Assembly (NCBI GenBank): GCA_023205875.1
Contig: CP060760.1
Coordinates: forward strand, 124,001 to 188,000
DNA from: Chloropicon primus
Lineage: Eukaryota; Chlorophyta; Chloropicophyceae; Chloropicales; Chloropicaceae
DNA length: 64,000 nt
Direction of reading: 5' to 3'
In this document: one piece after another, positions 719 to 13,689 of the stretch
Layout: each line of letters begins with the position of its first letter
How positions within the stretch are numbered: the stretch's first letter is position 1
Notes under the pieces: generated by a model
Seen by the model: only the letters and a program-made list of their open reading frames with translations
The model's database searches: none
Told to the model about the DNA's origin: nothing
Program-made: the position numbers and the translations under genes

Positions 719-3700
719 TTAGAATACACTGCCTTCGCTGGACAAGCCCGGGATGGAAAGGTTGCTCCCCTCCCCCGAGAAGGAGGCTACGGACATCTCT
801 TCGCTCTGGCCAGCCCCCAGCGATGGCCCAGAGTTTTCTTCCTCGCCGTAACCATCACCGTCGTCCTCGTTGAAGCCCCTGATGTCCTCGAGCTCGCTGT
901 AGTTGATATCACTGAGGTCAGAGGGCTCTCCTATCGGGGGCCCGAGTGGAGACCCTTCCGGAGCCTCTGTGGGAAGCACCCCCATCACCCCAGGCTCCCC
1001 TGCCACGCCGAAAGATCCGCCGCTTCCGTCTCTGGGGGAGAGGGAGCCATCGGAGGAGTGGATGTCGCTGTCGACCTCCTCGGCATCCTCGCTCATGTCT
1101 TCCGACGACGATTCCTCCTTTGCCGCCTGCGTCAGGATCTGGGATACGGTCAACGGAGCCGCGGGCTCTTCCCTCCTGGAAGAAGACTTGCCTCCACCAC
1201 CTTCCCTGGCTTGAGGGGACGTGTACGGGGCGACGTGGGGGCTGGGGAAGTTCTCGGAGGGGCTCTCCAGCACTCGTGGAGGCGATGAAACAATTCCCTT
1301 CCCAATCGGTTCCTCCTCTGCTTTCCCTTTGTGAGGAGTACCAGCCTTGATGTCTTCGACAGGGTCTTCCTTGGAGACTACTGGCTCGACCGGCGTACGC
1401 GTCACGGCGGCCTCCTCCTCGCCCCCGGGCACACTCTTGGCTTCAGGGGTCTTCTGCTTCTGCTTCCGAGGCGTTGTCTTGGAGGCCTTGGGCTGTGGAC
1501 TCTTCTTCGGGCTCCAGCTCGGGGAGTAACGTTCCTCCTCCCCCGGCTTCTCACGGGAAGTCAGTCCAGGGCTGTAAGGCTTTGCCGCTGGGTTCAAGGG
1601 CGAGGAGGAAGTCGATCCCCCCTTTGCCTCCTTCTTCTCCTTGGGTGACACCGATTTGGGTAGTACGGCTTCCTTCACAGTTTGCGGGGATTTAGCCCTG
1701 CTTGCCGCTCTGGTCGACGGTGATCCTGCTCGCTTCACGGGTGTTGTGGATGACGAGGCCGCCCCCGTCTCGATACTCACTGCCTCAGAATCTTTGGGTT
1801 TGGGGCTGCTCCTCGCTGCAATAGGCGACTGAGTCTTTCGCTGCCCTTGATCCTCCTCTGCTACCTGCGTTGCTTGGCCCTTTGGGGACGGTTTCGCCCA
1901 TTTAGGCGACGATGATTTCTTGCTGCTGCTTTTCGGGGATGCCCCTGGACTTGCCACACCCTTCGAAGGGATTGGCGATGAGACCTCCTTGCGCTTTCCT
2001 GGAGTCTTCACCGGAGGCGATTGGACTGGCTCCCCTTGCTTCTTCTTCGTCGGGGTTGCCTGGCTCGAGGGGGCCTCGTCCCCCTTCCCGGAATCTCCTG
2101 GTATCTCTATGGGCTTGATCTTCGCAGGAGTGACGATTTTCTCTTCCACCTCCTTCTGCGCAACGACTCCCGCTGCAGCGGGAGATGAGGCTTTCTCCTC
2201 GCCAGGCACCTGGATCGGTGCTTTCGCGGCCTCCTTCAAGACCTTGCTGGATTCCGCTCCTGGTGATGCTGGCACAGCAACCTTGGATGGTGAGGGCCTC
2301 TCCTTTTCCTCGGCGGCCGGCTCGTCAGAGCTGGAGCTGCTGCTGCTCGAAGAAGAAGATTCGGAATGGATCTTGGGAAGGGTGTCCTTGAACTTTGGAG
2401 TTTCCTCCTTTTCTGGAGATGATTCCTTTGCCGTGCCCCAAGACTTCTCCTGAGGAGACGGTGGTGGCTTCAGATCCTCAGAGCTTCCAGACTTGGACTC
2501 CCTCAGGGTGGTCCCGAGCGCGCCCGAAATGTAAGCAGGCACCTCCTGGACTCTCTCTCCCACCAAGGCACCTTCCATGATGGTCTGGCTCTCCTTCACG
2601 TAATCCCTCTCCATGACCTCCTCGCCTTCAGCAGGGCTTTGAGCGATCTCTGCACGGGGAGAAGGCAAAGGCGCAGGTCTGCTGAAATGTGGCCGAGCAT
2701 CGGGTTGGGGTTCCAGCGGCAGTGGGTCCGGCACCCTGCTCGTCCAGCTTCGAGATTTGAACGACTCCAAGCGACTTTTCAATCCATGCTCCAGCTTCTC
2801 GAGCTCTTCGAGATTCACCGCCGTGGAAGTTACAGGAGTCCTCTGGACGAAGGAGGACGAGTCGTCAGCCCGGAGGTATCTGCTGCTGGAATGGCTCCGA
2901 TGCTGGTAGAAGTTGCTATCGAAAGTGACTTGAAGCTCCCTGGCGTAGCTTCTCAGGTCCGAAGCCTCCTTTGACGCCAAGGCAGCCTTCATCTTCGCCT
3001 CCTCCAGTTGGTTCAAGGCCTCTTCTTGGCCATTGGTGGCCTCCTCAACAGCGGCGTTCGCCCGGTGGAGCGCGCTCTGCCACGTGCTCTCCCTCAGCAC
3101 CAGGGCTTCCCTCTCCTTTTGCCAAGAGCTTCTCTCCCGATCAAGTGTCTCCCGAGGTACCAGAGTGTCCGCGTGGATCTCGAGCTGCCTAATCTTTTCG
3201 CGCAGGTCTTCGTTCTCCCTCGTGCGCTCGATCAGCTTCTTTCTCAGGTCCTTGGCTTCCTTTCGAGCATTGGTCAGCATCTCCATTGCGACCTCTGGGG
3301 ATGAAGGCTGGCCGGCTTTGCCCCCAGTGATGTCCAGGGTCCTGGCCTTGAGCAGCCTGGCTTGCTCAAGCTGCTGAGCCGCAAAGTCCAGCAATTTCTC
3401 CGCCTCGATTTGCTTGACCTGGGCCGCGCTCGTTCTCTCGTCAAGGGCCTTCTCTCGCCTCTCGAGGCCCACGCGCCTCTCACCCACCTCGTCCTCGAAC
3501 CTCTCCCTCTCCAACCCCATCTCTTCCCTCTGGCGTGCAATCTCCTTCCTCGATTCGTTTTCCTTGATCTCCAAGGACCTCCACTTCTCCGTGATCCTTT
3601 GCATTGTCTCGAGCTCGCTCTCTTTCAGAGCAGCGAGTCTTTCGCCGTGTATCTTGTCCAGCTCCTCCTTCTCCTTGGCCAGGGACTCCCACGCCTTGGC

Positions 3701-4450
3701 GGATTCTTGAATACGTATCGACCTCGTCTCCATGTCCCTCACCCGGTCGACTTGCGCCTGCACGTCGGCCCTCGAGCGGATCTCCACGTCCCTTCGATAG
3801 TCGCTCATCTTCGTCTCAAAGATGGCCTTCATCGAAGCCCGCTCGGACTCAAGCCTGTCTTGCAGCCTCGACTCGATGCGTTGGACCTCGATGGACACGC
3901 TCTGGCTGCCCTCGGTGACCCCGTGGAGGTCCCAGGTCTGCGTCTCCGCCTCGTGCAGCGGCTTGGCAGAGTTCACTTGAGCCAGAGACTCCAATATCAA
4001 GGTCGACAGACACGAGGACGACGAGGATAGCCCCGGATCCGACGCTTCCTCCGCCCCTTCGCTTCTGCTCTGGATCGCTCGAGCCATCTGCGAGGTCTCG
4101 TCTATCTGAAGCATTTTCATGATCTCCCTCAAAGAAAGGGAGGACGACGACTGAAGGCCGCTCTCCGGAAGGAAAACCGAAAGCGTGTAGTCGTAACCAT
4201 TCCTCTTGAGGTAGTCCGTGAAGAGACTGTCGAGGACCCGAGGTATCAGGCCCTCCCTCGTTCTGCTTTGCCCTCCGACGCTCGTCCTGTCGTTCCCTCC
4301 CGAAAGCTTGGAAAGGATCCGCGTCCTGAGGTGGGACTTGAGGTTGTCCAAGATCCCGCTCGTGTGCAGCTTATCGTAAAGCCCGCGCTTGTACTCCCTC
4401 GCGGACGAAAGGTCCACCCCAACGTGCTCGCCTTGTCGCGTGCCGACCAT
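719..4450 (-). CDS. OFD1: OFD1-like LisH/coiled-coil centriolar protein
   Basis: The N-terminus matches OFD1, a centriole distal-end and ciliary protein: residues ~18-45 give KRGLYDKLHTSGILDNLKSH, and residues ~70-100 form a LisH-like motif containing YLKRNGYDYTLSVFLPESGL, close to vertebrate OFD1. Residues ~185-540 are a long heptad-rich coiled coil, as expected. The remaining ~700 residues are Ser/Lys/Pro/Glu-rich and probably disordered, with many SPK-type sites and an acidic end. It is a single uninterrupted 1243-codon frame starting at an ATG. A 23-nt poly-T run (4499-4521) lies ~50 bp upstream. Together with the DRC8-like gene at 27.8 kb it implies a centriole and cilium. Assignment rests mainly on the LisH region; the tail is too biased to compare. 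Confidence 0.85.
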   Translation of the reverse strand: MVGTRQGEHVGVDLSSAREYKRGLYDKLHTSGILDNLKSHLRTRILSKLSGGNDRTSVGGQSRTREGLIPRVLDSLFTDYLKRNGYDYTLSVFLPESGLQSSSSLSLREIMKMLQIDETSQMARAIQSRSEGAEEASDPGLSSSSSCLSTLILESLAQVNSAKPLHEAETQTWDLHGVTEGSQSVSIEVQRIESRLQDRLESERASMKAIFETKMSDYRRDVEIRSRADVQAQVDRVRDMETRSIRIQESAKAWESLAKEKEELDKIHGERLAALKESELETMQRITEKWRSLEIKENESRKEIARQREEMGLERERFEDEVGERRVGLERREKALDERTSAAQVKQIEAEKLLDFAAQQLEQARLLKARTLDITGGKAGQPSSPEVAMEMLTNARKEAKDLRKKLIERTRENEDLREKIRQLEIHADTLVPRETLDRERSSWQKEREALVLRESTWQSALHRANAAVEEATNGQEEALNQLEEAKMKAALASKEASDLRSYARELQVTFDSNFYQHRSHSSSRYLRADDSSSFVQRTPVTSTAVNLEELEKLEHGLKSRLESFKSRSWTSRVPDPLPLEPQPDARPHFSRPAPLPSPRAEIAQSPAEGEEVMERDYVKESQTIMEGALVGERVQEVPAYISGALGTTLRESKSGSSEDLKPPPSPQEKSWGTAKESSPEKEETPKFKDTLPKIHSESSSSSSSSSSSDEPAAEEKERPSPSKVAVPASPGAESSKVLKEAAKAPIQVPGEEKASSPAAAGVVAQKEVEEKIVTPAKIKPIEIPGDSGKGDEAPSSQATPTKKKQGEPVQSPPVKTPGKRKEVSSPIPSKGVASPGASPKSSSKKSSSPKWAKPSPKGQATQVAEEDQGQRKTQSPIAARSSPKPKDSEAVSIETGAASSSTTPVKRAGSPSTRAASRAKSPQTVKEAVLPKSVSPKEKKEAKGGSTSSSPLNPAAKPYSPGLTSREKPGEEERYSPSWSPKKSPQPKASKTTPRKQKQKTPEAKSVPGGEEEAAVTRTPVEPVVSKEDPVEDIKAGTPHKGKAEEEPIGKGIVSSPPRVLESPSENFPSPHVAPYTSPQAREGGGGKSSSRREEPAAPLTVSQILTQAAKEESSSEDMSEDAEEVDSDIHSSDGSLSPRDGSGGSFGVAGEPGVMGVLPTEAPEGSPLGPPIGEPSDLSDINYSELEDIRGFNEDDGDGYGEEENSGPSLGAGQSEEMSVASFSGEGSNLSIPGLSSEGSVF

Positions 4451-5889: not shown

Positions 5890-6472
5890 CTCCGTCCCCG
5901 TCTCCTTGAGTCTCTCAACCACCTCTCGTACCTAATCGCGCGTGAGCCAAAAAACCTAACCTAATCGCCGCTCGCAGTGGGAAGAGTGAGAGTGAAACCA
6001 CCTCGCCACCTTTCCCGTTCGTTCGTTTCGTTTCTTTGGAAAAAAAAAAAAAGAAAGCTCCAAAAGCCAAAACGTGTTGCGACACCGCGGTCCTCGTCAC
6101 CCTCCTCGCCGTCCTCGTCGCCGGTCGTGGGATCGCTCTCGCTCACTGCCTCAATCGATCGCGATCGCTTCTTCGGTTTCAGCCGTTTGAAAAAAAATTC
6201 TGGCGCGAACGCACGCTTTGCGTTACACTCATTTTATGATGTTGTTGGACACTGCATTTCCGCCCCATGTGACAGGGGGGCAGGGATCCCAAGGAAAGGA
6301 TTGTGTCTGAGGCTGTCCTGGGTGGAAGGCGGTCTGCGGTCGAGGGCGAGGGTTTGGGGTACCAAGGGCCCAGAACAGGGCATCTGTGTCGAAGCATCGT
6401 GTCGAGATCTTTCTGTTGACTGGTCGGTTGTAGCGAATGACGCCGGATTGAGGATTGGAGCGGCTTGGCAAG
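5890..6472. promoter_or_regulatory. Divergent promoter region upstream of the K+ channel fusion gene
   Basis: This 583-bp interval lies between two divergently transcribed genes. A short A run (6042-6053) sits in the middle. A copy of the dispersed 5' motif (GAAGCATCGTGTCGAGATCTTTC) occurs at 6391-6428, plus orientation, 45 bp before the channel ATG. No coding sequence is supported. Confidence 0.5.
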
Positions 6473-8548
6473 ATGGAGAGCGTGGCAAAGGTTTGGACGG
6501 GGAAGAGCTCCGGGGACAAGAGCGGCAAGGCGGTGGGAAGTGTCAGATCGGGTGCCCACTGGAGGTCTGCGGTCGACAGGCTCCGAGCTGTGAACTTCAT
6601 GGGGGAGTACAGTAAGGACGCGGGCCGGAGGGAGTACCTGCGCTCTCTCATCAAGAGGGCGAACAAGGGGACAGCAGCTTCCAGGCCAGCGAGCAAGGCT
6701 TCTCGACTGCTGAGGTTCACGCCCTCGACCCTGTACTTTCTCATCCTGGAGAAGGACTGGTGGTTCTGCTGCTTTCTGGCGTCCCTGTTTTACGCCATTC
6801 CAGTTACCATCTTCGGGCTCCTGTCGATGACCTTGGAACTCCAGAACGATACGGCGGATGTGGAGCTCGCCCTGCACGACTACGTCCCGTCCCAAGCCCT
6901 CGTGGCTTTCCGGTTCAGCTCGGCCAACATCATCGGAATGGGTTACGGAACCGTGGTGCCGACTTCGAACGAGGGCTTCTTCCTCGCGATCATCTCGCAG
7001 CTGCTCGGGATCATGATCAACGTGTTCGTCTTTGCGGCGGTGATGGCAAAGTTCCAAAGCCCAAGGGCGGACATCATTTTCTCGGACAAGATCTGCCTGT
7101 TCACGCGAGATGGCGTCCGGCACCTCTGCCTTCGCGTCGGCAACCTCCGATGCCACACTCTGTACAGCCCGTCGCTTCGAGTGTTTGTGCTGAAGGAGCA
7201 AGGGACGAGCGAGGGCGAGGATTTCGTCCAGAGCGTGGAGCTCTCGGTCGAAGAACCTGGAACGGTCAGCGGGTTCTACAACATCACTCACAGGATCGAC
7301 GGGAGTTCGCCCCTGTACGACTTGAGGGCGGAGGACATGAGGGTACCAGACAACATCCTGGCCTTTCAGGTCATCTTCACGGCGGTGGATCCGGTGTATC
7401 AAGCGGAGGTTTGTGCCAAGTGCTCCTACAGCACCAACCAGTTGGAGTTCGGGAAAAGGTTTGGGGACATGATGAAGTACGACGCGCGGGGCAAGCGCTT
7501 CCTGATCGACTTCACGTGCTTCGAGGACTTTGTCGATGCCCCAGAGTACTGGGAGGAGGAAGAGGCCATCTTCATCAAGAAGGACCTCCCGATGGAGAAC
7601 GGGGAAGCCCCGCCGGAGATCGAAGGGGACAAGCCTGGCCTGCTCCTTGGGTTTGGCCGCGAAAGCTTTGGGGATCCCTTGCTCGACGGCGACCTGCCGA
7701 GGGGAGGTCTGAGACCACAGTGCTGCTTCGCCCTGTCGGTAGCCATGACGCTGCTGGAGGCTGGGGACGACTACGAAGAGTACAGATCGGACCTCGCGGA
7801 CAAACCGACCTGGCATGCCAAGGTGGACGAAAAGCTGGAGACGCCGGCTTTGAGGCTGCCGCGCACGTCCGAGTGGCTCGACGGAACGGACCGCATCATC
7901 GAAACCCTTGTGGAGAAGAATGCAAAGGTCGCAGAGCTTGCGAGGTGCGAGCCAGGCGAGGGTTTGGACCCAAGCAATGCCCACTGGGAGGTCCACGCTC
8001 ACGTCTTTGCTCTGTGCCTCGTCCACGCGCCCAAAGCAGTTAAGATGAGAGCGTTCTTCTGGGGAAAGTTCGGTTGCGACGAGGCGTGGCCGGCGCACAA
8101 GTGCGAGGCACATCTGCAATCGGAGGCCATGAAAGTGCTGCGGCGTTGGGAATCCGCGCTAAAGGAAAGGCAGTACCTTTGCGGGTCAAGGCCAGGGCTG
8201 CTCGACTGTCGTGCGGCTCCCAAGCTCTTCTTGGCATTTTCACTCGCGGACTCTGGATTGGGGAACCTCGGGAAGCCCTTCAAGGAGCTCGCGCCTAGGG
8301 CTTTCCACTACCTGAACAGGTTCAGCAAGCGGCCGTCTTGGAAGAGAGCCTACGGCCCAGGGCGCGGCGTTCGAGTCGGGCCGGACATCATCACGGTGAG
8401 GACGCTTGCCAACAAGTTCGTAACGCTTGCCCCGACTACGGTTGATTCGGTCATATTGCCTGCCTTGGAGAAGGCGAGAAACAGGAAAGTCGAGAGGAAA
8501 CCTCGGGAGCGAGCGGAGAGGAGAAACAGCGCGGCCCTGTGCCTCTGA
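6473..8548 (+). CDS. Inward-rectifier K+ channel (Kir/KirBac type) fused to a DHAR/GST-like domain
   Basis: A 691-aa two-part protein in one unbroken frame. Residues ~80-195: slide-helix region, TM1 (~96-121), pore with selectivity filter GMGYG (GYG at 157-159), TM2 (~169-194). Residues ~200-360 follow the Kir cytoplasmic beta-domain closely, with landmarks LCLRVGNLR, SPLYDL, CSYSTNQLEFGKRF and IDFTCFEDF. Residues ~410-640 resemble plant dehydroascorbate reductase and animal CLIC: CCFALSVAMTLLEAGDDYEE then SDLADKPTWH (thioredoxin half) and CGSRPGLLDCRAAPKLFL (helical half). Alignment puts C417 at the catalytic Cys of DHAR (CPFC/S becomes CCFA). Start: the frame runs to a TTG upstream, so the first ATG, 6473, is taken. 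Oddity: the usual filter threonine (TxGYG) is Gly. Role inferred: K+ channel under redox control; the membrane is unknown. Confidence 0.9.
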   Translation: MESVAKVWTGKSSGDKSGKAVGSVRSGAHWRSAVDRLRAVNFMGEYSKDAGRREYLRSLIKRANKGTAASRPASKASRLLRFTPSTLYFLILEKDWWFCCFLASLFYAIPVTIFGLLSMTLELQNDTADVELALHDYVPSQALVAFRFSSANIIGMGYGTVVPTSNEGFFLAIISQLLGIMINVFVFAAVMAKFQSPRADIIFSDKICLFTRDGVRHLCLRVGNLRCHTLYSPSLRVFVLKEQGTSEGEDFVQSVELSVEEPGTVSGFYNITHRIDGSSPLYDLRAEDMRVPDNILAFQVIFTAVDPVYQAEVCAKCSYSTNQLEFGKRFGDMMKYDARGKRFLIDFTCFEDFVDAPEYWEEEEAIFIKKDLPMENGEAPPEIEGDKPGLLLGFGRESFGDPLLDGDLPRGGLRPQCCFALSVAMTLLEAGDDYEEYRSDLADKPTWHAKVDEKLETPALRLPRTSEWLDGTDRIIETLVEKNAKVAELARCEPGEGLDPSNAHWEVHAHVFALCLVHAPKAVKMRAFFWGKFGCDEAWPAHKCEAHLQSEAMKVLRRWESALKERQYLCGSRPGLLDCRAAPKLFLAFSLADSGLGNLGKPFKELAPRAFHYLNRFSKRPSWKRAYGPGRGVRVGPDIITVRTLANKFVTLAPTTVDSVILPALEKARNRKVERKPRERAERRNSAALCL

Positions 8549-8767: not shown

Positions 8768-10028
8768 ATGGAGGCGCCGGGGCGAGGGACGGGGAGGAGA
8801 GTGCTCCGGAGGGGAACACCGGTACCGGGGCGAGGGAGGGGATCCAGGCGAAGCCATGGGGACGCAAGGAGGGAATGCAGGAAAGAGAGGTGGCGCGCGG
8901 CATCGGGGAGTGGTACGTTGTGGGTTTTGAAAAAACGAAAATGAATGGAATGCGTGCATGGGGTTTGTGCTTTGCCCGTGGAAGCGAAAGGAGGCTGATG
9001 GTTGTGGTGGTTTCTCTGTCTCTATCTCTGTCTCTGTCTCTCTGTCTGTTTTTCTGTCTCGCTTGTTTCTCGCGTTGTGTGGCGAAGGCGACGGGGGCGA
9101 CGTGAACGGCGGTCCCTCGCAACGGACGGACGAGGAGGAGAGCAGGAACGACAACGGAGGAGGCGGCTGGTCGGACTGGTTTGCGAACGAGTGGCCCAAG
9201 TACAGCGAGGATGCGTCCACTATCACCATTGCCCTGGCTGCTTCGCTTGCATTTCGAACGTAAGGAACGAGGAGGAAGACGCCGGGTGGGGACTCTTGAC
9301 TGACGCCTTCTTTTGCTTGCACGTCGACGTCCGGCGTTCCAGGTGGATTGCTGAGCCCCGGTACATCCCTTCCCTCTCGATGTATCCAACCTTCAACGTC
9401 GGGGATCGGTTGATTTGCGAGAAGGTCTCGCGTCGCTTCAGTAAGCAGCCGACTGTTGGGGACGTCATCATATTTCACCCCGTCGAGGAGCTCCAGAAAG
9501 CGGGCTACGACGCGAGCGAGGTGTTCATCAAGCGAGTCATCGCGAGAGCAGGGGACACGGTCGAGGTGAAGAGGGGAAAAGTTTACATCAACGGGACACC
9601 AACGAGTGAAGCTTTTGTTGCGGAGGCGCCAAAGTATACGATGAACCCAGTGAAGGTTCCTGAGCATTACGTAAGTTGCCCAGGCGCCGCGGCGTCCTCG
9701 ACACTTCGACTCACACGCCGTTTGCTTCTCTCGCCCCTTGGAACGAAACGGATTGCCGCCATGCAGGTCTTTGTTATGGGGGATAACAGAAACAACAGCT
9801 ACGATTCACACCTGTGGGGTCCTCTTCCCGAAGAGAACATTATAGGCCGGGCCGTCTTCCAGTACTGGCCCCCGGGAAACGTGGGTGTGGTCCAAGGTAG
9901 GAATTCAACTGGGCTTCTCTCGCTTTCTCCTCTTTCTGCCTGAGTGCTGACCACCGTCCTCTCCACACGTCGCCAAAGGTCGTGCGAGGGTCTTCGCCGC
10001 TGAGGAGGCCCCAGCCCTTGTAGACTGA
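8768..10028 (+). CDS. Signal peptidase I, thylakoid processing peptidase type (5 exons)
   Basis: Serine-lysine signal peptidase that removes signal peptides on the lumenal side of thylakoid or envelope membranes. Exons 8768-8912, 9088-9259, 9343-9670, 9767-9896 and 9979-10028 join in phase into 274 aa; all introns are GT-AG. Exon 1 is rich in Arg and Gly with some Ser, resembling a transit peptide. A hydrophobic anchor ([11 protein letters not shown]) precedes the catalytic box [11 protein letters not shown] (Ser118); the general base is Lys169 in [12 protein letters not shown]; the box E motif is [20 protein letters not shown] followed by PEENIIGRA. Homology is certain from exon 3 on; exon 1 and its start are inferred from the in-phase splice and could be wrong. 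Plastid location is an inference from the leader and the lineage. Confidence 0.88.
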
Positions 10029-12443: not shown

Positions 12444-13001
12444 TCAAGCCCTCGTGGTCATGAACCTGAGGATGGTCTTTTCCTTCTCTATCGAGGGGGC
12501 GGCAAGGATTCCCTGAATCGTCTTTGCAGCGCTGGCGGGTGCCGAGTACATGAAGAGCACGTAGATGCCGACGTTGTAGCCCTCGATTGGGTACGCCATC
12601 CTCTGAGGCACGTTCTCGTAGCTCACGGCGATGTCTAGGGCGCCGAGGGAGGTCAGGGTATCCTGGAACGCCTGGATGTCGTCCTCCCTCTCCGCGTCTT
12701 GCGCGTCAGGGTTGTAGATGATCATGGTCTCGTACACCTTGAAGCCCCTTGGCGGGCTCGTCCAGCTCGTGGGCAGGTCAGAGGTCGCCGCCACGTCCGC
12801 GGCCGCCTTCAACCGCAACGCCGAAGCCCCTCCCCTCCCTCCTCCCCCGACCCTGGAGCACTGCCCGCACCACAAACTCCTGGTCGCCTGGCATGTTCCT
12901 GCCGGATACCTTTGGACTCTTCCGCTCGCCCTCCACGCCAACGCCCCTCCCCCCACGCTCCTTCCCACGACCACTCTCTCCGCGTTCATCCCAAGCGTCA
13001 T
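12444..13001 (-). CDS. Plastid-type 30S ribosomal protein bS6
   Basis: Small-subunit ribosomal protein of bacterial type. The last ~95 residues are a bS6 domain: KVYETMIIYNPDAQDAERED, then SLGALDIAVSYENVPQRMAY, GIYVLFMYSAPASA and ILRFMTTRA. The preceding ~90 residues are Arg/Gly/Val/Ala-rich with few acids, as in transit peptides. The ATG at 13001 is chosen (next in frame at 12989); the frame further upstream has only TTG. Import into the plastid is inferred from the leader and from the plant-type family; a mitochondrial version cannot be excluded. Confidence 0.82.
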   Translation of the reverse strand: MTLGMNAERVVVGRSVGGGALAWRASGRVQRYPAGTCQATRSLWCGQCSRVGGGGRGGASALRLKAAADVAATSDLPTSWTSPPRGFKVYETMIIYNPDAQDAEREDDIQAFQDTLTSLGALDIAVSYENVPQRMAYPIEGYNVGIYVLFMYSAPASAAKTIQGILAAPSIEKEKTILRFMTTRA

Positions 13002-13689
13002 AACCACCACCACCAGCAACAACCCACCAGCCTATCCAGCTCTTCGATAGAACACACTCAAGCCAAGCAAGCAAGCGCTCGTGTCCTTGGTCCTTATCTC
13101 TCTGCTAAAGCACACACACACACACACACACGACACACGAATATATCCGAAACCGAAACCAAGCGGATGCCAAGGTATAATGCTCGTCCACCGTCCTCGT
13201 CCTCGTCCACCGTCCTCGTCGTCGTCCTCGTCGTCGTCGTCGTCGTCGTCGTCGCTTTTGTGGCTCCCTTTTAATGCGGCGCTCCATCTTATCCGCTTTC
13301 TGTGGCTCTCCATCATTTAGTGTCCGAGTCGCAATACGAGTGCAATCAAAACCACACAGGCGGTCTGGCATCGAGGAGCATCGCATCGGAGCCTATCGAC
13401 GGAGACCCAGGGCGTAAGGGAACGAAGAGGGGTCCAGGAGGGTGTTTGGGAGAAGCGTCGTGTCGCGGGCTTTCCAAAGAGCCGTCGCTCGAAAGGAGAA
13501 GTGGTCGGGTTGGGATTTGGCATAGGATTGAGTGAGACCCCACCACGGGCAGAGGGAGAGGGGAGAGGCCCGAGGCATCGACGGAGACCAAGGGTGGGAG
13601 GGAAAGGGGAGGGGTTCAGGAGGGTGCTTGGGAGAATCATCGTGTCGCGGTCTTTCCAAAGAGCCGTCGCTTGAAAGGGGAAGCTTGAC
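13002..13689. repeat. Divergent intergenic region with simple repeats and a tandem ~105-bp duplication
   Basis: This 688-bp region separates bS6 (minus) from the Get3/ArsA gene (plus). It contains a CA repeat (13109-13130), a TCG/GTC repeat (about 13196-13254), and two imperfect copies of a ~105-bp block at about 13392-13500 and 13574-13683. Each block runs from ATCGACGGAGACC to the dispersed motif CTTTCCAAAGAGCCGTCGCT (13470-13494 and 13652-13676). The second copy ends 7 bp before the Get3 start codon. Confidence 0.7.

Follow-up and report, generated by a model that had tools for sequence, protein, structure and literature searches.

The window, by which we mean the whole stretch of 64,000 nucleotides that was analysed, comes from Chloropicon primus, a tiny marine green alga, and carries on its plus strand the Kir-GST gene of strain RCC138 (P0001, positions 6473-8548), a single open frame of 691 residues in which a Kir-fold channel precedes a GST-fold domain. 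Third-position GC lies between 0.74 and 0.86 in all five sections of the coding sequence. The features of the gene, in window coordinates, are the following:

6473-8548, plus strand: Kir-GST coding sequence, 691 amino acids plus stop, uninterrupted
6473-6709, plus strand: N-terminal region, residues 1-79, model confidence mostly low
6710-7072, plus strand: Kir transmembrane part (slide helix, M1, P-loop, M2), residues 80-200
6935-6949, plus strand: selectivity filter GMGYG, residues 155-159
7073-7543, plus strand: Kir cytoplasmic beta-domain (IRK_C), residues 201-357
7151-7153, plus strand: C227, aligned to position 219 (Lys) of Kir2.1 chain 7zdz
7631-8479, plus strand: DHAR-related GST-fold domain, residues 387-669
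7721-7723, plus strand: C417, predicted GST nucleophile
8534-8545, plus strand: conserved C-terminal tail A-L-C-L with C690

Around the gene, a signal peptidase I-like ORF (Peptidase_S26, 1e-39) lies downstream at 9002-9943 on the plus strand; on the minus strand, positions 719-4450 encode a 1243-aa protein with LisH and with a FOP_dimer match that lies below its cut-off, which recalls basal-body proteins, and positions 12444-13022 a Ribosomal_S6 domain protein. A 646-aa ORF at 6179-8119 on the minus strand, overlapping the Kir-GST gene, was set aside, as nothing in its favour came up.

The first-pass annotation had described one unbroken frame joining a Kir channel to a GST-fold domain, and the 691-codon frame, Pfam, PDB profiles and AlphaFold2 models concur in bearing this out. 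The Kir fold extends over residues ~80-357, and the HMM searches that had been proposed for the two parts returned IRK_C at 201-355 (3.6e-17, above cut-off) and GST_C_2 at 548-616 (3.5e-7). The Pfam IRK match at 99-197 (2.9e-3) remains below its curated cut-off, with 17.9 against 22.7 bits; the two-helix part is nonetheless recognised by other evidence, as the phmmer match to Kir2.1 begins at residue 105 and the fold match at residue 80. Similarly, GST_N_2 was detected at 417-480 below its curated cut-off (5.8e-4), and no NCBIfam match to P0001 was obtained at E up to 0.1. When the single sequence was searched against the PDB, Kir2.1 was matched at 8.6e-19 and DHAR at 0.012, and the model of the Kir part matched the folds of KirBac3.1 and Kir6.2. 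All together, we regard the fusion and the presence of both folds in P0001 as practically certain.

Within the genome (17,584,162 bases, 20 contigs), IRK_C was found four times, spread over three genes, namely the P0001 gene and two paralogues on contigs C11 and C16:

C11, 408071-412357, minus strand: Kir paralogue, in locus L007 (C11:404500-414400)
L006, 634-3102: C16 Kir with two tandem IRK_C and without GST, 822 aa, canonical TIGYG filter

The C11 gene is a single frame of 1429 codons arranged GST-GST-GST-Kir. Its Kir part is 65% identical to that of P0001 over residues 43-356 and its GST units 47-48%, while the three units, each of 945 bases and 315 residues, are nearly identical to one another. 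Specifically, units 1 and 2 differ at 11 of the 945 positions, units 2 and 3 at 33 and units 1 and 3 at 44, the differences in the latter two pairs falling mostly within the final 39 bases. Starting from MSRPAL, the encoded protein counts 1312 aa; removal of the middle unit leaves 997 aa, with one difference from the 997-aa GST-GST-Kir protein of C. primus CCMP1205 (P0003, A3770_11p63090). Therefore, either the strains differ by exactly one GST unit, or a unit was gained or lost in assembly.

Protein searches, in each of which 8000 candidates were scored, extended the family to at least 48 proteins (P0001 and P0003 included) and also matched a vertebrate Kir, P0017. A search for the same architecture in related algal proteomes had been suggested, and in the public sequences at least 42 family members carry both domains: among the matches listed, own profiles found Kir and GST together in 42 of 48, a share that is biased upward, the queries being fusions or their parts. 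By the same profiles, Kir alone was found in P0016, P0044, P0045 and P0048, all shorter proteins, and GST alone in P0018 and P0019, which from their sequences look like C-terminal pieces of fusions. No free-standing relative of the GST unit appeared among the 8000 candidates scored, and of 27 pattern matches in viral contigs none was confirmed as a relative. The domain order varies. Next to plain Kir-GST proteins, some have a second GST behind the first (Kir-GST-GST; P0004, P0024, P0026, P0027), and in P0008 an additional C half accompanies Kir-GST; in P0003 the Kir domain comes last (GST-GST-Kir), and in P0013 it lies between two GST domains (GST-Kir-GST). The two GST copies of P0013 are identical across the aligned unit, and this protein may be real or the product of assembly or of a tandem transcript. 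Some contigs barely exceed their frames (847 aa in 2584 bases for P0011, 825 aa in 2530 for P0025), which suggests that they may be cDNA.

Conservation was read from an alignment (A4) of 28 of the 48 family proteins, free of fragments, near copies and most permuted or double-GST proteins; in proteins outside it, the positions of C227 and of the nucleophile were checked separately. Trees of the Kir part and of the GST part return the same three groups, of which group i comprises the Chloropicon-like proteins and P0010, group ii P0011, P0039 and the P0033-P0030 groups, and group iii P0036 and the P0012-P0029 group. This agreement fits one old fusion, the domains having stayed together since before the groups split. 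When the Kir tree is rooted on distant Kirs, P0010 is unresolved at its base, and the arrangement of P0001, P0002 and P0003 differs between the Kir and GST trees.

Turning to the pore, the filter of P0001 has Gly in the Thr place of TxGYG, and from its GYG the Chloropicon pore should be K+-selective. The name 'inward rectifier' holds as far as homology to Kir is concerned, but not for the residue behind it: the M2 rectification site, which we take to be the acidic Asp172 of Kir2.1, is Asn in 28 of 28 A4 proteins and Asp in the aligned vertebrate P0017.

The GST part shows the thioredoxin-like N domain and helical C domain of the superfamily. A profile of nine GST units placed DHARs in the top eight positions against the PDB (best 2.4e-14), followed by RegF and an omega GST (1.9e-8) and, lower, by the Chlamydomonas DHAR 5xft (1.7e-7) and CLIC2 (1.9e-4). 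With a profile built from five divergent units, DHARs occupied the top four places (6.6e-10 to 3.3e-8), with a thiol-dependent reductase (5e-8) and an omega GST (1.6e-7) close behind and other DHARs under the omega GSTs. The best nine fold matches of the domain were likewise DHARs, those to tau GST, CLIC and omega being lower by no more than about 1 to 2.5 Z units. In a tree of 32 units from 26 family proteins and eight references, CLIC not being among them, the 32 units form one clade (100/98), apart from the clade of three DHARs (96/88) and from five other GSTs; a long-branch warning applies to this tree, and the order among its outer groups is not resolved. From these sequence comparisons, the domain is DHAR-related but of a separate lineage, and not a proven DHAR. 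Thus, of the domain originally announced as dehydroascorbate-reductase/CLIC-like, the kinship to DHAR stands, DHAR being nearest in sequence and fold, whereas membership of DHAR proper cannot be assumed, given the separate clade and the active-site changes described below; as to CLIC, the Cys-type GST fold is shared, but the match is weaker than that to DHAR and CLIC is not the nearest relative. Chloropicon primus also encodes an ordinary DHAR (L015, 3.4e-45 to plant DHAR) and an omega-like GST (L014).

The assignment of C417 to the catalytic Cys of DHAR is upheld: the Cys20 place of DHAR corresponds to C417 in P0001 and is Cys in 27 of 27 A4 rows despite variable neighbours, making C417 the likely nucleophile. 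The Cys-Pro-[FY]-[CS] motif around it is worn in Chloropicon, reading CCFA in P0001. Outside A4, 18 further GST units have the nucleophile Cys. In P0024, P0026 and P0027, the first unit lacks it and the second retains it, so that a thiol module cannot be the role of all units; each of these chains holds one worn and one presumably working unit.

Other active-site positions are less constant. According to PMC4726096, OsDHAR uses Cys20, Lys8, Asp19 and Ser23, and according to PMC5307357, AtDHAR2 binds glutathione through Asp72, Ser73, Lys47, Lys59, Val60 and Phe22. In the profile alignment of GST units with DHAR, from which the AtDHAR2 binding places were taken, the Phe22 place is Phe or Tyr in 27/27 A4 rows, the Ser73 place Ser or Thr in 21/27 and the Lys47 place Lys in 20/27, whereas the Asp72 place is acidic in 4 and non-acidic in 23. 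At the Asp19 place, just before the Cys, Asp is found in none of the 27 rows and Glu in three. Arg396, Arg in 28/28 rows, lies near the strand 1 Lys8 of DHAR, but the loop length differs. With Asp19 absent, Asp72 mostly lost and Lys47 kept in only 20 rows, glutathione binding may be weak or different; glutathione chemistry is plausible for the domain, while DHAR activity is uncertain and, since the Asp19 place is never Asp and the Asp72 place mostly non-acidic, cannot be assumed.

Outside the active site, C227 is Cys in all 46 Kir parts, that is, in 28/28 A4 proteins and in all 18 further members that have a Kir part (P0036 included). The region of Kir2.1 residue 219, adjoining Arg218, is an anionic-lipid and gating site, and C227 would presumably sit at the Kir gating interface between membrane and cytoplasm. 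At C314, the 28 A4 proteins are split between Cys (20) and Ser (8). C690 is Cys in all 24 A4 rows that are not gapped at this position, and [LI]C[LIT] forms the C-terminal end of 33 of the 48 family proteins, whether GST or Kir is the last domain; most of the 15 others are short or have an incomplete last domain. This ending fits what we take to be the class II PDZ-ligand pattern, and the tail is a possible PDZ ligand.

As a whole, these observations are best explained by a redox-gated channel with an on-board thiol-redox GST module, an explanation that we incline, with reserve, to accept. The protein would assemble into a tetrameric channel of the Kir type, every subunit bearing a DHAR-related Cys-type GST on the cytoplasmic side. 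C417 would take up or pass on glutathione, and either the resulting state of the GST domain, or C227 as its likeliest target in cis, would open or close the pore. For a channel that brings its own GST of the Cys type and has an invariant Cys where gating presumably takes place, the simplest reading is that gating would follow the glutathione redox state. Such a channel might couple oxidative stress, for instance excess light, to K+ flux, as the first-pass annotation proposed. There is precedent in certain K+ channels, which S-glutathionylation inhibits and glutaredoxin restores: PMC11631806 describes Kir6.1 as held closed by a GSH moiety bound at Cys176, an inhibition that glutaredoxin or DTT undoes, and PMC12040275 describes inhibition of the K+ channel AKT1 by S-glutathionylation.

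The GST fold might instead be a ligand-binding or clustering domain devoid of redox chemistry, a ligand or dimerisation gating or grouping the channels in the manner of ligandin-type GSTs. The missing Asp19 and the mostly lost G-site Asp would agree with this, as would the nucleophile-less extra units of P0024, P0026 and P0027 and the multiplication of GST units inside genes, as might be expected of binding modules or spacers. The invariance of C417 among variable neighbours, the Cys retained in the second unit of those same three proteins and the Lys frequent at the Lys47 place speak against it, and we consider such a domain possible but unlikely.

The filter gives the family a second aspect. 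On a tree of 31 Kir rows, in which filter states were read by hand and checked against the sequences, a G[YF]G filter is kept in 11 and changed in 20, to TMSGG, TMSWG, TMSAG, TMGGG, TMGSG, TGSPA, TGSSA and others. GFG is retained in group ii (P0011, P0023, P0025, P0045) and in group iii (P0036). The tree needs three changes, of which well-supported branches force two; because other Kirs have GYG, these are probably losses. Among eight regions compared in the four Chloropicon-type rows, the filter shows the highest conservation (0.90), and at 0.84 in a sample of five rows from clade ii it is changed but steady there. In a sample of seven rows from clade iii, conservation is lowest in the filter (0.54) and turret (0.53), compared with 0.87 for M2 and 0.84 for the cytoplasmic domain. 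Within these two other clades, members with the same chassis and a lost filter would be non-selective or silent channels. Taken to its widest extent, a eukaryotic family would have evolved as one redox-gated Kir and GST unit, with GST acting in cis on C227 at the gating interface and the K+ filter repeatedly lost, many members being either non-selective channels under redox control or redox receptors in the shape of a channel; we put this forward tentatively, as rather unlikely to hold in full.

These same filters bear on a different proposal, by which Kir would chiefly serve as membrane anchor or receptor, with GST as the working part, an enzyme at the membrane. It fits best where the filter is lost, as in the 20 rows above and in the clade iii sample, whose filter and turret are its least conserved parts. 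It is opposed by the well-conserved filter of the Chloropicon-type rows and by the NirBacs, which according to PMC4607889 conduct even without the filter, and we judge it improbable. Finally, a misread pair of neighbouring genes is hardly credible, as no stop codon crosses the Kir/GST join of P0001, the same join recurs in P0002 and P0005-P0007 (longest contigs 42,993 and 29,192 bases), and the C11 paralogue has the domains in reversed order.

The statement that no Kir-DHAR fusion had been described agrees with the literature searched: among the papers listed, no description of a Kir-GST or Kir-DHAR fusion was found by title and start of abstract. In the main texts of the two Chloropicon genome papers (PMC12301720 included), 'potassium' and 'glutathione' occur 0 times. 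In the databases, P0003 is labelled 'Inward rectifier potassium chan...' by UniRef and 'hypothetical protein' by NCBI, and P0012 and P0033 'glutathione S-transferase' by JGI; family members are therefore already deposited, named after one half. The many related fusions among public sequences suggest a channel carrying its own redox sensor. Where one chain also includes a GST module, glutathione redox state would be linked directly, and testably, to ion flux, and this in a class of ocean picoalgae that is ecologically important. The filter-changed members would be natural material on a Kir scaffold without K+ selectivity.

With respect to known systems, P0001 shares with Kir and KirBac channels the two-helix pore, GYG (in Chloropicon), IRK_C and the KirBac3.1/Kir6.2 fold match. 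The Kir-GST family differs from them by the attached GST domain, the Asn at the rectification site throughout A4, the Cys in place of Lys219 of Kir2.1 and the altered filter of two clades. Plant and algal DHARs are its best match in sequence profile and fold and have in common with it the catalytic Cys and often the Lys at the Lys47 place; in contrast, the GST units form their own clade, lack Asp19, have mostly lost Asp72, are fused to a channel and come with a tail of their own. CLICs and omega GSTs have the Cys-type GST fold in common with it, with a weaker match; CLICs, however, are the proposed pore themselves, whereas here the pore is the Kir domain. KefB and KefC are K+ efflux systems gated by glutathione and thus place K+ flux under the glutathione state, as proposed for Kir-GST, but with an unrelated transporter fold and without a GST domain. 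Finally, P0001 retains its GYG, and the 20 rows without a G[YF]G filter resemble NirBacs, which according to PMC4607889 combine a Kir chassis with a replaced, foreign P-loop filter and non-selective flux. Unlike NirBacs, which are bacterial, these members carry GST and filter sequences of their own, and are linked to an alga only via kinship to the algal protein; a filter change on a conserved Kir body would be a possible parallel to NirBacs outside bacteria.
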